IMG/VR virus record: IMGVR_UViG_3300037357_000053
Coordinates: 1-42,847 of that record
DNA: 42,847 nt
Origin: a virus
Direction: 5' to 3' (one strand)
This document shows positions 2,689-41,038 of the stretch, piece after piece (the stretch's first letter is position 1; each line of letters begins with the position of its first letter). Both the position numbers and the translations under genes were made by a program. A model generated the notes under the pieces. The model ran no database searches and was not told where the DNA came from. It was given only the letters and a program-made list of their open reading frames with translations.

Positions 2689-2832
2689 TTACTTCGGCCC
2701 TCCCGCCATAATCACGATAACGGCCCCAAGCATCGCCGCCACGGTCACAAACCACACAGAGTCGGCTAATTTCCCTAACCGCGTTGTAGATGCCCACCAG
2801 CGCGAAATCTCGCGCACGAAGTCACGATACAT
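2689..2832 (-). CDS. 47-residue single-pass membrane protein
   Basis: ATG at 2832 follows the upstream TAA (2834-2836) by 1 nt; the frame ends at TAA 2689-2691. The product has an amphipathic basic N-terminus (MYRDFVREISRWW) and one hydrophobic segment (about residues 28-43: FVTVAAMLGAVIVIMAGG) ending in GPK. The tight spacing on both sides supports it as a real gene. It could be a small holin-like or superinfection-exclusion peptide; the early-operon position favours host-envelope modification over lysis. Confidence 0.6.
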   Translation of the reverse strand: MYRDFVREISRWWASTTRLGKLADSVWFVTVAAMLGAVIVIMAGGPK

Positions 2833-2833
2833 G

Positions 2834-3646
2834 TTACTCGTCTGCATCAGGTGCCTCCTTTAGGTACTGGCGAATCATCTTAATTTGCTCTGCCGCCGCC
2901 CATGCCGCATCTACCGCCGACGTTGCCGACGTTGCCGCCGACCTTGATCTATCCGACCCGTCTAACCAGGCCGCCGACCGTGCCGACGCCCTTGCCGCCG
3001 CCCATGCCGCCGACCTTGCCGCATTTACCGCCGACCGTGCCGACGCCTCTGCCGCCGACGTTGCCGACGCCTCTGCCGCCGACGTTGCCGCCGACCTTGC
3101 CGCATCTACCGCCGACCGTGCCGCATCTACCGCCGACGTTGCCGACGCCTCTGCCGCCGACGTTGCCGACGACCATGCCGCATCTACCGCCGACCGTGCC
3201 GCCTCTACCGCCGACCGTGCCGCCTCTACCGCCGACCTTGCCGCATCTACCGCCGACCGTGCCGACGCCCCTGCCGCCGACGTTGCCGCCGACCATGCCA
3301 CATCTACCGCCGACCTTGCCGCCAACCTTGCCGCCTCTGCCGCCGACCTTGATCTATCCGACCCGTCTAACCAGGCCGCCGCCCACGACACAAAACTGTC
3401 TTCTCGATATACCTCCAGCACGGCTCTGATAGCGAGTTCCGCAAAGCAGCAGGCAAGATGGTGGAGCCCATGTGCCGGTATCAATTCCGCGCGCAACACA
3501 CCCCAGATTTTATCATCATCGCATATGTTCAGGTCCAGGATTTCCAACGCGGTTAATGCCTCGCGTCCGTCCCATAACCCCTCAAGAGTCTGCAAGCCGT
3601 AACACGCGCCCGCCTCGCACATTGCACGCGCCGTCATACTAAGCAT
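2834..3646 (-). CDS. Alanine-rich heptad-repeat protein
   Basis: 270 residues. About 1-85 form a normal globular head (MLSMTARAMCEAGACYGLQ...). Residues 90-245 are a low-complexity array of seven-residue units of the type D/E-A-A-R-S-A-V, with Trp, Thr and Glu variants. A short non-repetitive helix ends it (EQIKMIRQYLKEAPDADE). The repeat should form a long helix or helical solenoid. Similar Ala/Arg/Trp-rich repeat proteins occur in phages without known function. The GC-rich 21-bp repeat also keeps frames open on the opposite strand; the head, the end and the tight spacing to neighbours identify this frame as the gene. Confidence 0.7.
   Translation of the reverse strand: MLSMTARAMCEAGACYGLQTLEGLWDGREALTALEILDLNICDDDKIWGVLRAELIPAHGLHHLACCFAELAIRAVLEVYREDSFVSWAAAWLDGSDRSRSAAEAARLAARSAVDVAWSAATSAAGASARSAVDAARSAVEAARSAVEAARSAVDAAWSSATSAAEASATSAVDAARSAVDAARSAATSAAEASATSAAEASARSAVNAARSAAWAAARASARSAAWLDGSDRSRSAATSATSAVDAAWAAAEQIKMIRQYLKEAPDADE
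2933..3381. repeat. 21-bp tandem repeat array flanked by 44-bp direct repeats
   Basis: Inside the alanine-repeat gene, imperfect 21-bp units (gccgac/gccgcatctacc type) run through most of this span. An identical 44-bp sequence encoding A-W-L-D-G-S-D-R-S lies at both edges (2933-2976 and 3338-3381, offset 405 bp). This suggests growth by unequal exchange. Confidence 0.75.
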
Positions 3647-4199: not shown

Positions 4200-4484
4200 T
4201 CACCGTGACACCTCTTCTCCCCACCACTCGTGCGTGTTGTCGGCGTTAACGATCTGCTCGACCCGTGCTTGCAACACATCGAGGCGATCAGCGAGCAACT
4301 CTTCTTCGTAGCTGCAAGCAGGATCTGAGGTTGCATTGAAAATGCTCGACGTTTCCTCATCGCTCATGAACGTGTAAAGCAGCCCTTTTCGCTCGACAAC
4401 AGCCCAGGTGCCTCCGAACTGCCCTTCTGGTGTCGCGGCGTACAAGCCTGTTTCTCTGTTGATTCCAAATTGCACTCTGCTCAT
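4200..4484 (-). CDS. Hypothetical early protein, first gene of leftward operon
   Basis: 94 residues, ATG with a strong GGAGGAG SD. The N-terminal half looks beta-rich (VQFGINRETGLYAATPEGQFGGTWAVVERKG); the C-terminal half is an acidic helix (YEEELLADRLDVLQARVEQIV) ending in WWGEEVSR. No family recognised. It is the first product of a near-perfect sigma70 promoter and probably among the earliest and most abundant phage proteins. That position is typical of host-takeover or anti-defence proteins, but nothing in the sequence shows which. Confidence 0.65.
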   Translation of the reverse strand: MSRVQFGINRETGLYAATPEGQFGGTWAVVERKGLLYTFMSDEETSSIFNATSDPACSYEEELLADRLDVLQARVEQIVNADNTHEWWGEEVSR

Positions 4485-4498
4485 TTTCGTCTCCTCCT

Positions 4499-4514
4499 GC
4501 CGGGTTGACCGGCT
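4499..4514 (-). promoter_or_regulatory. GCCGG/CCGGC hairpin before SD
   Basis: The 16-bp sequence GCCGGGTTGACCGGCT (plus-strand reading) forms a 5-bp stem with a 5-nt loop, ending just upstream of the SD of the gene starting at 4484. The identical 16 bp occurs at 8176-8191, and an expanded copy at 1120-1143. The two exact copies are read in different frames, so they are conserved as RNA or DNA rather than as peptide. Confidence 0.6.
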
Positions 4515-4553
4515 GACTATTATTATCGGATTGTGTCCTAATCAACTATACCC

Positions 4554-4582
4554 ATTATATCATCGGATTATGCGCCTGTCAA
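4554..4582 (-). promoter_or_regulatory. Consensus sigma70 leftward early promoter (copy 1)
   Basis: Read leftward: TTGACA (4577-4582), 17-bp spacer, TATAAT (4554-4559), both perfect consensus. The 31 bp at 4531-4561, spanning the -10 and early leader, are identical to 8259-8289 at the second early promoter. A TTTTGCA-type tract lies just upstream of both -35 boxes. Confidence 0.9.
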
Positions 4583-4622
4583 GGGGGTTTTGCACTTTTC
4601 TTAAAATATTTTTCGGCGTGAC

Positions 4623-4651
4623 TTGACACCGAGCGCGCGGGGCGGTAACAT
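4623..4651 (+). promoter_or_regulatory. Rightward early promoter
   Basis: TTGACA (4623-4628), a 17-bp GC-rich spacer (4629-4645), then TAACAT (4646-4651). An AT-rich tract (4595-4612) sits upstream like an UP element. It is divergent from the leftward promoter 40 bp away. Transcription would start near 4657-4658, exactly at the first arm of the structured leader. Confidence 0.75.
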
Positions 4652-4657
4652 GGGGGC

Positions 4658-4783
4658 GTTCACGTTGAGTGCCTGGGGAACACCCAGCTTTTAAGATGTC
4701 CCGGCCCGTTCCTCCTTCCCTGGCACAGCGTGAACAACTGTACCCTGTTGAAAAACGGGCCGGGGTAATATTGGACGGGGAGG
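4658..4783 (+). promoter_or_regulatory. Structured 5-prime leader (candidate attenuator/riboswitch)
   Basis: Outer stem: GTTCACG (4658-4664) with CGTGAAC (4729-4735), continued by GTGCC (4669-4673) with GGCAC (4722-4726). Inside, TGGG (4674-4677) pairs with CCCA (4683-4686), followed by CTTTT. An 11-bp perfect pair, CCCGGCCCGTT (4700-4710) with AACGGGCCGGG (4754-4764), has one arm inside and one outside the outer stem, so it forms a pseudoknot or a competing fold. CCTCC (4711-4715) can pair with the SD core GGAGG (4779-4783). The predicted RNA 5-prime end coincides with the first arm. A 42-codon ORF (ATG 4696) without SD also crosses this region. Confidence 0.55.
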
Positions 4784-4787
4784 GATT

Positions 4788-5885
4788 ATGGAAATACAAC
4801 CGTGGAAAGAGATTTGCGATCTGATACCCCCACTGTCAGCAGCCGAGCGCAAGCGACTGTTGGCGAGTCTGTTGAAGCAGCACGTGGATATTCCCGTAAT
4901 CACAATGGCGGATGGGCGCATAATCGACGGCCACCACCGATGGGAGCTCGCGCCCGACAAATGCAGGATTGAGATTCTCGATATAGGTGAGGCCGAAGCC
5001 TTTGATCTGGCCGTCCAACTAAACATTGCTCGCCGAAACCTCAGCCCTGAGCAGCTACAACCGCTGATAGGATTCCTGCGCGGTCAAGGCAAAACCCAAG
5101 CCGCAGTAGCCGAAGCGGTGGGGGTGAGTCAAAAAACCGTTTCAAACGTTGAGAATACAAGTGATAGTAAAAATACTAATGCTTGTATAGATCAGCGTGT
5201 GTCGGTTCCGAAACAAGCATACTCAGCCATAGCCGAGCGGGTTCGATCAGGCGAGCCACAAGCGCAAATTGCCGCCGATCACCATATAACTCAACAGAGA
5301 GTGAGTCAAATCGCCACTCTGGTAGAATCCCGCGCGAACGTGCCGGACCCCGTGACCGGCGAAGTGCCGATGCCAGATCAGAAGTTCCGCTGCATAGTCA
5401 TCGACCCGCCCTGGCCGATGCAGAAAATCGAACGCGAGAAATATCCCAACCAATCCCAAACACTCGACTACCCGGTTATGAGTCTGGATGAAATAAGCAG
5501 CCTACCTATTGGCGAATTGGCTGACCCTGCCGGGTGTCACCTCTATCTGTGGGTCACTCAAAAGTTCTTGCCTTCGGGTTTCTGTCTGTTTGACAATTGG
5601 GGCGTCAAATACCAGTGTCTGCTGACCTGGGTTAAGCCGTCTGGATTCACGCCATTCTCCTGGATGTACAACACTGAGCATGTGCTGTTTGGCCGGATTG
5701 GAAGCCTACCGCTAGACAAGCTCGGCCTGAAATTATCGTTTGATGCCCCGGTAACAAGACACAGCGCAAAGCCGGATGTATTCTACGACCGTGTGATTCA
5801 AGCAAGCCCCGGCCCGCGACTCGAAATGTTCAGCCGCCAAAGACGAGACGGGTTTACGTGCTGGGGAAACGAGGTGCAGGAATGA
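4788..5885 (+). CDS. ParB-like/HTH/MT-A70 adenine-N6 DNA methyltransferase fusion
   Basis: 365 residues, GGGGAGGG SD. Residues 35-85 are a ParB/Srx-like domain (DGRIIDGHHRW, 42-52). Residues 97-120 form an HTH (GKTQAAVAEAVGVSQKTVSNV), and a second HTH-like part lies near 150-175. Residues 198-360 are an MT-A70 family methyltransferase with the catalytic D206-P-P-W motif (IVIDPPWP) and LYLWVTQKFLP and HRW-free SAM-fold strands. It should methylate adenine N6 in DNA, probably to protect phage DNA or mark promoters. It heads the rightward early operon, with the structured leader upstream and an ATGA overlap to the next gene. ParB plus MTase fusions are known from phages. Confidence 0.88.
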   Translation: MEIQPWKEICDLIPPLSAAERKRLLASLLKQHVDIPVITMADGRIIDGHHRWELAPDKCRIEILDIGEAEAFDLAVQLNIARRNLSPEQLQPLIGFLRGQGKTQAAVAEAVGVSQKTVSNVENTSDSKNTNACIDQRVSVPKQAYSAIAERVRSGEPQAQIAADHHITQQRVSQIATLVESRANVPDPVTGEVPMPDQKFRCIVIDPPWPMQKIEREKYPNQSQTLDYPVMSLDEISSLPIGELADPAGCHLYLWVTQKFLPSGFCLFDNWGVKYQCLLTWVKPSGFTPFSWMYNTEHVLFGRIGSLPLDKLGLKLSFDAPVTRHSAKPDVFYDRVIQASPGPRLEMFSRQRRDGFTCWGNEVQE

Positions 5886-6475
5886 ATGGCCGGGTCAAAG
5901 AGGACTTTGAGCGCGGGCGAAAACATCTGGATTATATCAAGCGAGTTTTGGGTCAATACCTCATTTCGGAGGCGCCGTTTAAGGAGGATGTCCAGCACAA
6001 TACCGACCTGATTGTTTTGACGCTCAAACCCTATCGAATCGCGTGCCGAGTGCGCACATACGAATATTTCGAGCGATACCCCAAAGAATTTACGATCCGA
6101 TCTTCACGGCCCAGCGGGGTAGAAACAGAACTACAGAAAATGCTTAGCGGTTGGGGTGATTATATCTTCTACGGATTCGAGAACAAAGATAACTCATCAC
6201 TCTGTGCATGGATTTTGGGTGACCTGGATATTTTCAGGCTGTACGTCAAAAGCTACTCAGAGGATCACGGCGGCAAATTGCCGGGTGTCGAGATTCCAAA
6301 CTTTGACGAATCCTCTAAGTTCCGGGCGTTCCGGCTCGTGAATATCCCGGTCAACTTTCTGTTGGCTCAGAAACAAGCGCCTGTTGTTATGCCAGATATT
6401 GACCTATACCGCAGCCGTAGGTCGGCGAAACCAACACCCAAAACAGAGCCGAGTCTGTTTGAGGTGTCCTCATGA
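5882..6475 (+). CDS. Hypothetical protein coupled to the methyltransferase
   Basis: 197 residues from the ATG at 5882, which overlaps the methyltransferase stop (ATGA) and has an AGGA SD; the longer frame from 5858 is not needed. Residues 30-70 contain D-x14-R-x-R (NTDLIVLTLKPYRIACRVRTYEYF), and 75-95 contain FTIRSSRPSGVETELQK. The D ... (R)xR/E pattern is reminiscent of small restriction-nuclease-like (PD-(D/E)xK) folds, but no full active site can be assigned. Tight coupling suggests it works with the methyltransferase or acts on the same DNA. The C-terminus (KPTPKTEPSLFEV) looks disordered. Confidence 0.65.
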   Translation: MNGRVKEDFERGRKHLDYIKRVLGQYLISEAPFKEDVQHNTDLIVLTLKPYRIACRVRTYEYFERYPKEFTIRSSRPSGVETELQKMLSGWGDYIFYGFENKDNSSLCAWILGDLDIFRLYVKSYSEDHGGKLPGVEIPNFDESSKFRAFRLVNIPVNFLLAQKQAPVVMPDIDLYRSRRSAKPTPKTEPSLFEVSS

Positions 6476-6735
6476 TTTGTCAAATAGGCTCGGTACGGAT
6501 AATCCAGGGCAACAACAGGCACGATTTCGCGGCGGCCATCGAATTAGCCGAGCTATTGCGTGATATGGTGGACGCGGAGTTTATGCCTTTGTCCTCAGCC
6601 GAAGAATTCGTATGTCGTTTCGCGGTGCTCCACGGCATGCGCCACGAGACTGTGTGGCTCGATGAGTCAAACAACCTGGAGGTGCACTGGGATGGCAACC
6701 GGCAGGATGCTACGCAAGTCCTTGAGTCTGTGTAA
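6472..6735 (+). CDS. Hypothetical early protein
   Basis: 87 residues, start ATGA-coupled to the previous gene. It appears to be one alpha/beta domain (AAAIELAELLRDMVDAEF ... HETVWLDESNNLEVHWDG). No motif recognised. Its last 44 nt overlap the start of the replication-initiator-like gene, whose SD lies within it. Confidence 0.6.
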   Translation: MICQIGSVRIIQGNNRHDFAAAIELAELLRDMVDAEFMPLSSAEEFVCRFAVLHGMRHETVWLDESNNLEVHWDGNRQDATQVLESV

Positions 6736-7402
6736 ACAGTGTCGGGGCATTAGTCTGTTCTCTAATTGGCTATTCACTTGGCTAATTCCTCATGCCGATG
6801 ATTTCGGGCGAATGGTCGCGGACCCTGAAATAATACAGGCTCAAGTATTTCCCTTGTTCCGCTCTATCCGACTACTGCCCACCACTGCGCAGGAATCGCC
6901 TATCACGCCGGAACTCATCGCTGAAGGATTGCAAGAACTGCAGGCGGCGAACCTCATAATCCTCTACGGAACTTCAGAAGAATCATATTTGGTTTTCCCA
7001 AAGTGGGAGGTTCACCAGACGGGCCTTCATCGCCGCACAGCGTCACAATTCCCGGAACCTCCCGGAAGTTCCCGGAAGTTCCCGGAAGTTCCCGGCCAAG
7101 AACGCGCGCGTGCGCGGAACGGAACAGAACAGAACATGAACAGAACAGAACAACAACATGCGGAAACTGCTCAACAAAAAGATACCTGGGTGCCACCCGG
7201 TCCAGAAGGGAAGGGAGCTGCTGTTTCTTCTCAGACTGTTCCAGAGGGAAGGGAAGGGAACGGGAAGCGAGAGCCGCCGGACTTCGCTGCACTCGCGGCC
7301 AAAGCCAAGGCCATTGTGCCGGAGGATAAGCCGCCGCCGGAACCCTCGCCACCTAACCCAGTCAAAACCATCGGCGAACTCGCGGAAAGGATGCGGATGT
7401 AA
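6692..7402 (+). CDS. Replication initiator / replisome-organizer-like protein
   Basis: 236 residues from the ATG at 6692, chosen for its GGAGG SD at 9 nt and because family members begin with a short basic stretch like MATGRMLRKSLSLCKQ. Residues 1-100 (LFTWLIPHADDFGRM..DPEIIQAQVFPL..., IAEGLQELQAANLIILY, YLVFPKWEVHQ) match the winged-helix N-terminal domain of phage replisome organizers / DnaD-like initiators. The rest is low-complexity and Pro/Glu/Gln-rich. Such proteins bind an origin and load helicase. The gene contains the tandem repeats at 7051-7152, as lambda O contains its origin. It ends in a TAATG overlap with the next gene. Confidence 0.7.
   Translation: MATGRMLRKSLSLCKQCRGISLFSNWLFTWLIPHADDFGRMVADPEIIQAQVFPLFRSIRLLPTTAQESPITPELIAEGLQELQAANLIILYGTSEESYLVFPKWEVHQTGLHRRTASQFPEPPGSSRKFPEVPGQERARARNGTEQNMNRTEQQHAETAQQKDTWVPPGPEGKGAAVSSQTVPEGREGNGKREPPDFAALAAKAKAIVPEDKPPPEPSPPNPVKTIGELAERMRM
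7051..7152 (+). repeat. Iteron-like tandem repeats, candidate replication origin
   Basis: A 10-bp unit, CCCGGAAGTT (first copy CCCGGAACCT), repeats at 7051, 7061, 7071 and 7081, with a partial unit at 7091. After a GC palindromic stretch (7102-7116), a second cluster of AACAGAAC / GAACAGAAC units runs from about 7117 to 7152. Both lie inside the replication-initiator-like gene. The protein stretch they encode is low-complexity, so selection on the DNA is plausible. Confidence 0.45.
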
Positions 7403-7743
7403 TGCCTGATGTTGTTGAGGTAGTAGAAGAGCTTATTGCTGCTGGAATGGCCGAATACGACGCGGCCAACCTCGTGGATAATTGCGGGGGCCCGGCTTAT
7501 GTCTCGCGCTGGCTACATCACGCGCAAGGGCTCCCCAACGTCCGCAACGTGCCTGCATTCGTGCGCTCGATGTGCAACAAGGGCGCGCCCGTTCCGTCTG
7601 GCTCTGTCGCTGCACAAACGCCGACAGGTTCCCGTGTGCTCAAGCATTACCGCGCTTACCCCTATGCCGTTTGTCCCTGGTGCGGCGCGCTCAAAGGCAA
7701 GAATGGCTGCGAGATGTGCGCCGTGGAGGAGTGGGATGAGTAA
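7402..7743 (+). CDS. Zinc-ribbon-tailed hypothetical protein
   Basis: 113 residues, ATG overlapping the upstream TAA (TAATG). The N-terminus is helical, UBA-like in look (VVEVVEELIAAGMAEYDAANLVDNCG). The C-terminus has CPWC ... CEMC, two CxxC pairs 8 residues apart, a zinc ribbon. The position after a replication initiator suggests an accessory such as a helicase-loader or primase-like helper, but there is no catalytic motif. The stop overlaps the next start. Confidence 0.6.
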   Translation: MPDVVEVVEELIAAGMAEYDAANLVDNCGGPAYVSRWLHHAQGLPNVRNVPAFVRSMCNKGAPVPSGSVAAQTPTGSRVLKHYRAYPYAVCPWCGALKGKNGCEMCAVEEWDE

Positions 7744-7891
7744 CAGTAACACCTGCGCCCGCTGCGGCGCACAACTGCGCAATACAGCCGACATCGCGTG
7801 GACCGAAATACCCATCATGGGTATTTCGGTCCACGCTCTGTCGATGCCTGCGTGCGCCCCCAACGCTCACGCAGGCCGAAATCGTTGCTAA
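7736..7891 (+). CDS. 51-residue zinc-finger-like protein
   Basis: ATG at 7736 with GGAGGAG SD, overlapping the previous gene by 8 nt; stop TAA 7889-7891. It starts MSNSNTCARCGAQL, one CxxC, with further Cys/His near the end (MPACAPNAHAG). Its middle codons (WTEIP ... GISVHA) are encoded by the 39-bp palindrome at 7797-7835. The stop overlaps the stop of the convergent leftward gene (CTAA). It may be a true gene or an ORF created around the palindrome. Confidence 0.45.
   Translation: MSNSNTCARCGAQLRNTADIAWTEIPIMGISVHALSMPACAPNAHAGRNRC
7797..7835. repeat. 39-bp perfect palindrome with 1-nt centre
   Basis: CGTGGACCGAAATACCCAT (7797-7815), central C (7816), then its exact reverse complement (7817-7835). 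The arms are 19 bp. It lies 53 bp before the convergent stops at 7888-7891. No U tract follows on either strand. It could form a cruciform or a very stable RNA hairpin. Confidence 0.85.
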
Positions 7892-8160
7892 TTCGCCGGG
7901 GTGGATAATGCCTCAGCAAATCCAGCCCAATCAACCTCACCCCAATCAACCCAATCAACCTCACCCAAATCCGGATCCTCACCCTCTGCTGATACAAAAT
8001 AGCCGGGCCACCGCGATATTGATCCGTCTGCGGCCAGCACGATTTTCCCCAGCGCAGAATCATCCAAGTCAACCAGATTAGACAAATATACCCACTCGTC
8101 GTCGCCGAACTCGTCGCCGAACTCGCCGTGCACTCTCAAATCCTGCCATCGTGTTTTCAT
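7888..8160 (-). CDS. Small, highly acidic early protein
   Basis: 90 residues from the ATG at 8160 (AGGAG SD). A second good start lies in frame at 8232 (AAGGAG SD) and would add 24 residues and translate through the hairpin at 8176-8191. By eye there are about 21 Asp/Glu against 5 Lys/Arg, with repeated acidic/aromatic units (GEFGDEFGDDEW and GEVDWVDWGEVDWAG). Such composition is typical of DNA-mimic inhibitors (Ocr- or Ugi-like in charge, not in sequence). It is transcribed alone from a perfect sigma70 promoter between the early and late rightward units. The function is inferred only from charge and context. Confidence 0.6.
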   Translation of the reverse strand: MKTRWQDLRVHGEFGDEFGDDEWVYLSNLVDLDDSALGKIVLAADGSISRWPGYFVSAEGEDPDLGEVDWVDWGEVDWAGFAEALSTPAN

Positions 8161-8175
8161 TTCGATTCTCCTCTC

Positions 8176-8191
8176 GCCGGGTTGACCGGCT
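8176..8191 (-). promoter_or_regulatory. GCCGG/CCGGC hairpin, second exact copy
   Basis: GCCGGGTTGACCGGCT, identical to 4499-4514. It sits 15 nt upstream of the ATG at 8160, overlapping the approach to its SD and downstream of the alternative start at 8232. It may decide which start is used. Confidence 0.6.
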
Positions 8192-8281
8192 TCATTTCTC
8201 CACATTCGATTGTCGGTAGTTGTCGTTTCCATATTCGTCTCCTTCTGCTATTGTCGGCTTGTGTCCTAATCAACTATACCC

Positions 8282-8310
8282 ATTATATCCCAGGTTTACT
8301 TACGTGTCAA
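8282..8310 (-). promoter_or_regulatory. Consensus sigma70 leftward early promoter (copy 2)
   Basis: Read leftward: TTGACA (8305-8310), 17-bp spacer, TATAAT (8282-8287). It shares the 31-bp block 8259-8289 with copy 1 (4531-4561). Confidence 0.9.
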
Positions 8311-8371
8311 GGGGTATTTTGCAAATAATCCAAGTTTTTTTTCGAGCACACCCGCAGCGCCGAAAACGCAG

Positions 8372-40461: not shown

Positions 40462-40629
40462 ATGAACGCAATCGACGCCGTGGATCAGCGACTGAAAATA
40501 GTGCGCGAGTGGTCGCGGTTCTACGGCGTCGATTGCGATGAAGCCCGGATTTTCGAGGCGATGGGCTACGATCTCATTCTTAGGCTGCAGGAGGCGGAAC
40601 ATGGAACTGAATCGGCAAGCACTGATTGA
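40462..40629 (+). CDS. 55-residue hypothetical protein
   Basis: ATG 40462 to TGA 40627-40629, overlapping the endolysin start by 29 nt. It is a charged helical peptide (NAIDAVDQRLKIVREWSRFYGVDCDEARIF-like stretch) with a weak SD. The endolysin SD lies inside it. It may be real or a spacer ORF. Confidence 0.4.
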   Translation: MNAIDAVDQRLKIVREWSRFYGVDCDEARIFEAMGYDLILRLQEAEHGTESASTD

Positions 40630-41038
40630 TACGATGGAACCAACATTTGAAGGCCACACCTACGTGATGGACGCGAAACCGCCGCTTGCATCGTCACCCG
40701 GATACTGGAAAGCCGCCGATTGCAGCGGCTTCGTGCGGTGGCTCCTGTTTGGCGCGTTTCGGCTCACCGTGCCCGATGGCTCGGTAAATATTCACGAGTG
40801 GTGCGAACAGAAAGCGTTGCCTGTCTGCAAGTATTCCGAAGTCGGGCCGCTGGAGGATTCGATTCTTAGAATCTGTTTCATCGAACCGAAGGACGGTGAG
40901 GCGGGACACGTTTTTTTGCTCGTAAACGAAAACACCATTGAAAGTTACGGTGGCCATGGCCCCGGAAGGCGGCCATGGGATACCCCGATACTGCTGAAAA
41001 ACGTCAGTGCATGTTACGAACTTGGCAATCTGGTTTAG
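40601..41038 (+). CDS. NlpC/P60-like endolysin
   Basis: 145 residues from the ATG at 40601 (AGGAGG SD). AADCSGFVRWLLFG gives the DCSGFV signature with catalytic C41; GEAGHVFLLVNENTIESYGG gives catalytic H103 on the expected strand. The domain is a papain-like peptidase that cuts peptide links in peptidoglycan. It has no signal peptide and no binding domain, so release depends on the holin set just upstream. It is the last rightward gene. Confidence 0.82.
   Translation: MELNRQALIDTMEPTFEGHTYVMDAKPPLASSPGYWKAADCSGFVRWLLFGAFRLTVPDGSVNIHEWCEQKALPVCKYSEVGPLEDSILRICFIEPKDGEAGHVFLLVNENTIESYGGHGPGRRPWDTPILLKNVSACYELGNLV

Follow-up and report, generated by a model that had tools for sequence, protein, structure and literature searches.

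Background

In transcription attenuators, the antiterminator usually shares bases with the terminator. The cIII mRNA of phage lambda has two alternative structures, and type III toxin-antitoxin operons produce a terminated structured RNA, with the downstream gene being expressed by read-through. For a phage DNA methyltransferase the timing of expression matters, since too little enzyme leaves the phage DNA open to restriction and too much may harm the host or the virus. The mRNAs of type I toxins (H. pylori aapA3; hok) pass through successive metastable hairpins and finally have the Shine-Dalgarno (SD) sequence hidden (PMC6733600). The modification gene mom of phage Mu is held off by one inhibitory leader structure, which is opened by the zinc-finger protein Com (PMC6483171). 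In phages, the fusion of a ParB-like domain to a methyltransferase is common, and some of these domains bind NTPs (PMC12704722).

In this study, a leader in a 42,847-base IMG/VR virus record (the whole stretch of DNA analysed, hereafter the window) was compared with leaders of the same layout in other phages. These leaders look like an undescribed kind of RNA switch, a reading based on the rival hairpins in the window leader and on the presence of sequence-unrelated leaders of the same build in several phages. A literature search, covering mostly the beginnings of abstracts, returned no description of such a leader class.

Promoter, operon and probable host

Two divergent promoters were found between a minus-strand gene (4200-4484) and a plus-strand operon starting at 4788. 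The plus-strand promoter has 10 of 12 matches, with the -35 hexamer TTGACA at 4623-4628, a 17-nt spacer and the -10 hexamer TAACAT at 4646-4651. This promoter (4623-4651) sets the predicted +1 at about 4657-4658, where the outer stem H1 starts, and its -10 box ends 6 nt ahead of H1. The start of the predicted RNA at the 5' arm of an outer stem, which had been proposed in an earlier sequence-only reading of this DNA, is thus in agreement with the promoter.

The first operon gene (4788-5885, plus strand) encodes a protein of 365 aa with a C-terminal MT-A70 adenine methyltransferase domain (PF05063, E = 4e-20), confirming the methyltransferase operon of that reading. Weaker HTH-type matches were observed in the middle part of the protein, and by eye its N-terminal part is similar to the ParB-like region found in its relatives. 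Four further genes of this operon lie downstream (5858-6475, 6472-6735, 6560-7402 and 7402-7743, all on the plus strand), and a Pfam search gave no match for them. The closest chromosomal relatives of the methyltransferase in the scan were from Chloroflexota (Anaerolineae) genomes; therefore, the host of the virus probably belongs to the phylum Chloroflexota.

Several repeats were also noted in the window. A 71-nt repeat with 82% identity between its copies (4521-4591 and 8249-8319) carries the minus-strand promoter of two minus-strand genes, the one at 4200-4484 and another at 7888-8232, and its first copy contains a perfect TTGACA-17-TATAAT. It is followed by a second repeat (4490-4514 and 8167-8191), and the 71-nt pair may serve both genes as an early promoter or operator. 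A nearly perfect inverted repeat of 27 bp, whose loop is 1 nt, is located where the methyltransferase operon ends (7789-7843). Another inverted repeat, of 26 bp (88%) with a 19-nt loop (40467-40537), ends exactly where ORF 40538-41038 starts. The left end of the record (1-329) has a 15-nt tandem repeat, and a long irregular repeat series with units of 12-57 nt (2883-3395) lies inside the overlapping ORFs 2790-3602 (plus strand) and 2834-3646 (minus strand).

Parts and pairings of the window leader

Two interleaved helices, H1 and H2, and an SD-masking pairing span positions 4658-4785, all parts being on the plus strand. In H1 (the outer stem, P1), the 5' arm GTTCACGTTG (4658-4667), located at the predicted +1, pairs with the 3' arm CAGCGTGAAC (4726-4735) to form 10 bp including one G-U; by eye, the stem can be extended via a 2-nt bulge by TGCC/GGCA (4670-4673/4722-4725). 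A small hairpin, CTGGGGAACACCCAG (4673-4687; CTGGG-GAACA-CCCAG), is followed by CTTTT. The crossing helix H2 has the 5' arm TGTCCCGGCCCGTT (4697-4710) and the 3' arm AACGGGCCGGGGTA (4754-4767), the latter ending 20 nt upstream of the start codon. Its core is a perfect 11-bp crossing pair (4700-4710/4754-4764), which becomes 14 bp when extended (4697-4710/4754-4767). H1 and H2 cross without shared bases. An anti-SD segment, TCCTTCCCTG (4713-4722), is complementary to the SD region CGGGGAGGGA (4776-4785). The small hairpin with its CTTTT, the 11-bp crossing pair and the potential for SD masking had all been pointed out in the sequence-only reading, and each was found in place, as was a 42-codon ORF starting from ATG 4696 (4696-4824, plus strand).

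No match to the window leader was obtained in a DNA search of phage records, and searches through the second operon gene and the terminase detected no close relatives of the window. A search with the exact H2 pattern yielded contig L029, which was rejected; it contains a palindrome with the same core and lacks the leader layout.

The best interleaved helix pair was rated by a simple score. The window leader scored 57.5, a value reached by none of 300 dinucleotide shuffles (best shuffle, 52.0), and in each of the nine leaders tested, the window included, 0 of 300 shuffles were as good. A scan of both strands of the 42.8-kb window, in which a 60-residue ORF with a start codon and an SD was required in addition to a pair score of at least 46, gave this leader as the sole match. 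Its plain nested folding energy was unremarkable (z = -1.14; 21 of 200 shuffles folded equally well), as expected if the point of the structure is two crossing helices. An ensemble test, which used no filter for promoter, distance or score, was applied to 393 ORF leaders from the window and from seven phages that had been chosen as carriers of such leaders; its top five were all leaders of MT-A70 genes. Owing to the shortness of its probable helices, the window leader came only 15th in this test, and it belongs to the weaker members of its class.

Leaders of the same layout in other phages

Homologues of the methyltransferase were gathered from virus contigs and genomes regardless of their leaders. 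The layout, with a score of at least 53, preceded 10 of 128 distinct MT-A70-type ORFs (DPPW motif; window included) as compared with 4 of the 702 remaining ORFs of those loci (Fisher p = 3e-6). Methylases are again encoded by two of these four, namely an N6_N4_Mtase with a ParB-like N-terminus (L071) and a ParB-Dam protein (L133). Enough upstream sequence was available for 111 distinct MT-A70 genes, of which 10 scored at least 53, with a gap down to 47.5; more than 90% of the MT-A70 genes examined had no detectable leader of this kind.

Fifteen convincing leaders were picked by hand from scans selecting for crossing helices. Ten, which had been found by their score, precede MT-A70 genes (the window, L006, the second copy in L071, L100, L105, L075, L135, L035, L271 and L260). 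In L113, the leader is followed by a small ORF and directly after it by a ParB/MT-A70 gene. The other four (the first copy in L071, L133, L188 and L190) precede other genes. Whole-phage scans showed that the interleaved leaders of L188 (7738-7853, plus strand) and L190 (16272-16403, minus strand), each with a good promoter, lie upstream of a gene for an HNH endonuclease and of an unknown ORF of 82 residues, respectively, indicating that this leader type is not confined to methyltransferases. Lower-scoring possible members outside the 15 were L004, L070, L078, L093 and L127.

In 8 of the 15 leaders the -10 box ends 5-7 nt before H1, so that the first transcribed bases there are also the first of H1; for a -10-like hexamer at that spacing, the expectation was approximately 174 of 14,000 random places (about 1%). 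The 3' arm of H2 ends 11-34 nt upstream of the start codon in all 15, partly because closeness was demanded by the scan. A run of at least four T residues at the end of H2, or no more than 5 nt from it, gives 10 of the leaders a terminator-like end. No U-run follows H2 in the window, L006, L135 and L133, and L113 is borderline. A hairpin followed by a U-run before the gene, as in an intrinsic terminator, is thus a feature of these 10 and not of the window leader.

Sequence similarity between leaders was not found, except for the two L071 copies and the near-identical L078 and L081; before the MT-A70 genes of unrelated phages, both helices are rebuilt from different sequence. A search with the pattern of the L071 leaders recovered the same phage again, the one other hit, in L198, being a chance match in a coding region. 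A related leader was observed in the cultured Nitratiruptor phage NrS-3 (L308, 18570-18654). Its two interleaved helices measure 17 bp and 11 bp, the shorter one lying directly over the SD of gene NrS3_41, and NrS-2 carries the identical sequence in this region. The mechanism could therefore be tested outside metagenomes. In a background scan of seven cultured phages (312 kb), three matches of at least 51 were obtained, and NrS-3 was the convincing one; the other two, in GC-rich Mesorhizobium phage DNA, were judged to be chance.

Several candidates were dropped by eye, including L041, L001, L068 and L040, with crossing helices within GC-rich coding sequence, and L110, with tandem repeats. Others, such as L189 (4053), L275, L045, L052 and L281, were left out for having no promoter, for being coding or GC-rich, or as unexamined. 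A Nostoc contig (L142, 1850-2060; scan score, 60) has a long near-perfect inverted repeat before an ORF, which looks like a mobile element or a simple palindrome rather than a leader.

Compensatory changes between two leader copies

The L071 phage carries two leader copies, 81% identical over 137 nt, ahead of two methylase genes. Comparison of the copies revealed four pairs that had changed on both sides and were still paired (three in H1 and one in H2) and two further pairs altered on one side, with 98.1% of the cells paired. Sliding the partner by 1-3 columns as a control gave 0 double changes. In the shuffle control, 35 of 500 shuffles did as well, this control being weak because only two sequences, which are related copies, were compared. 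The double changes are good but not overwhelming evidence for selection on pairing. Compensatory changes had been named beforehand as a check on which the sequence-only reading would stand or fall, and they were found rather than absent, on the leaders of other phages.

Folding of the growing transcript

The leaders were folded at growing lengths, with nested pairs only and at equilibrium for each length, from which real kinetics could differ. Just before the 3' arm of H2 is added, H1 had a mean pair probability of at least 0.8 in 13 of the 15 leaders, the exceptions being L190 and L133, in which H1 was not the main fold. Afterwards, the probability of H2 was at least 0.9 in 14 of 15, L188 being weaker, and H2 was the stronger helix in 13. 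This predicted flip from H1 to H2 is partly built in, since the leaders had been picked by hand from scans for crossing helices.

In the window, H1 stayed at approximately 0.9 up to 4758 and H2 reached 0.96-0.99 at 4764-4778. Past 4778, pairings that include the SD took over, leaving the SD with a mean unpaired probability of approximately 0.25 (4777-4784, full leader); the SD is likewise paired in the minimum-energy fold. An alternative fold masking the SD, as in a translational switch, is thus present in the window in silico.

In three of the lower-scoring possible members (L078, L070 and L004), the alternative folds were H1 and a terminator-like hairpin followed by a U-run, the 3' arm of H1 lying within the loop or stem of that hairpin. 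No clear switch was seen in L093, and L127 exhibited only a late refolding of the SD region.

Proposed mechanism and alternative explanations

The attenuator-like character ascribed to this leader by the sequence-only reading, with competing folds and SD masking, gains support from the recurrence of the layout before MT-A70 genes and from the compensatory changes in L071. We consider it rather likely that the window leader is a cis-acting RNA switch (attenuator) operating during transcription. In the proposed sequence of events, H1, with its 5' arm made of the first nucleotides of the transcript, would form first and hold the 5' arm of H2 in its loop. Once the 3' arm of H2 has been made, the more stable H2 would displace H1. 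In most relatives, the H2 hairpin and the U-run would constitute an intrinsic terminator just before the methyltransferase gene, and transcription would end if H2 prevails with RNA polymerase positioned at the U-run. In members such as the window, which have no U-run, the RNA would move on to a third set of pairings hiding the SD. The gene would be readable or translatable as long as H1 persists and off after the rearrangement, with the balance set by some factor or by the speed of transcription and translation. We infer that in the cell H1 would delay H2, and that the ensuing termination or SD masking would change expression. Candidate triggers include feedback by the methyltransferase, transcription speed and a host factor; the reported binding of NTPs by some ParB-like domains (PMC12704722) leaves room for the idea of NTP-sensing feedback, which is speculative here.

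Part of the evidence could be read in other ways. The sequence-only reading had offered a pseudoknot or a competing fold, and the crossing helices on which both depend are present. If H1 and H2 existed at the same time as a standing H-type pseudoknot close to the start codon, ribosomes would be blocked or a protein would be bound; binding of the encoded methyltransferase, for instance, would give feedback control. In favour of this, the two helices of the window have no bases in common, its loops of 29, 15 and 18 nt are long enough, and most leaders precede modification enzymes. In 6 of the 15 leaders, however, the 3' arms of H1 and H2 are separated by 0-2 nt, the helices being 7-21 bp long, so that full H1 and H2 could hardly coexist there; moreover, the U-runs after H2 in 10 leaders suit a terminator better, and no conserved loop sequence is available for a protein to read. 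A standing pseudoknot is therefore doubtful as a rule, and we regard this explanation as unlikely. The same U-runs would suit a leader that mostly stops there as a stable structured small RNA starting at +1 inside H1, the gene being reached by read-through in the manner of type III toxin-antitoxin operons, but the absence of a U-run from four leaders including the window, the lack of sequence conservation and the several different downstream genes make this very unlikely.

Translation of the 42-codon ORF, either as a leader peptide controlling the folds or as a small protein, had been named by the sequence-only reading as the competing explanation. An ORF crosses the leader in the window and, by eye, in L006, L075, L113 and L135, but not comparably in L100, L105 and L260. 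ATG 4696 has no SD upstream, no common leader peptide or conserved short ORF was found among the leaders, and the fetched loci and phage records contained no homologue; a weak match in phage Eos (E = 0.04) lies inside an unrelated annotated gene and was rejected. This explanation is thus highly improbable. The two inverted repeats might act instead as DNA, for example as sites for the HTH or ParB-like part of the protein, in line with their position next to the promoter and with its HTH-type matches. Since the arms of H1 and H2 are unlike each other and unlike those of other leaders, and the promoter is not covered by the repeats, which are located from +1 to the SD, only a slight chance is given to such sites. 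The modest nested folding energy and the 15th rank in the ensemble test would be explained if the complementarity in the window were fortuitous and functionless there, even with the class being real elsewhere. Against this stand the shuffle result, the single match in the window, and a gene type and position, after the -10 box and before the SD, that match those of other phages' leaders; chance is accordingly given the least credence of all.

Beyond the switch proposed for the window, a wider idea is put forward tentatively. Phages of many hosts might share an undescribed leader class defined by geometry alone, in which one helix is anchored at the first transcribed base and a second, interleaving helix has its end at the SD or within a terminator. 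Selection would keep this geometry through complete sequence turnover, mainly before DNA-modification genes, and it would perhaps be read by the encoded methyltransferase or by transcription speed. A class of this type would escape both sequence-based searches and searches with nested covariance models.

Comparison with known systems

Like SAM, SAM/SAH and other riboswitches in Rfam, the window has a leader before an AdoMet-using enzyme, with SD masking. Unlike them, the leaders described here have no Rfam match and no conserved core sequence, such as would bind the ligand in an AdoMet riboswitch. At the gathering score, Rfam gave no match for the window or for 15 further loci, and in permissive scans of the window and L006 leaders the hits were to microRNA models and to a single sRNA model, each scoring far below its cut-off. 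The statement in the sequence-only reading that no known riboswitch consensus is matched was thus upheld, while the suggestion of an AdoMet-responsive riboswitch lost ground, since copies precede non-methylase genes (the HNH gene and the unknown ORF) and the conserved core is absent.

The similarity to transcription attenuators is closer, in that an early hairpin would exclude a later terminator-like hairpin, followed by a U-run in most relatives. The arms here mostly interleave without sharing bases, different from usual attenuators, the form of which is resembled by L004. Also different are the missing U-run in the window and the fact that no leader peptide, ligand or binding protein is known. 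As a putative bistable phage mRNA controlling translation, the leader may be likened to lambda cIII.

With Mu mom, the window shares a phage DNA-modification gene with a leader structure near the start codon; the available part of that account describes no crossing helices at +1 (PMC6483171). In type I toxin mRNAs (PMC6733600), the central roles fall to an antisense RNA and to pairing with the 3' end, and the SD is masked directly by the transient hairpins, whereas all helices here are in the 5' leader before an enzyme gene. Similar to those mRNAs, the window leader passes in silico through successive transient folds during transcription and ends with its SD hidden.
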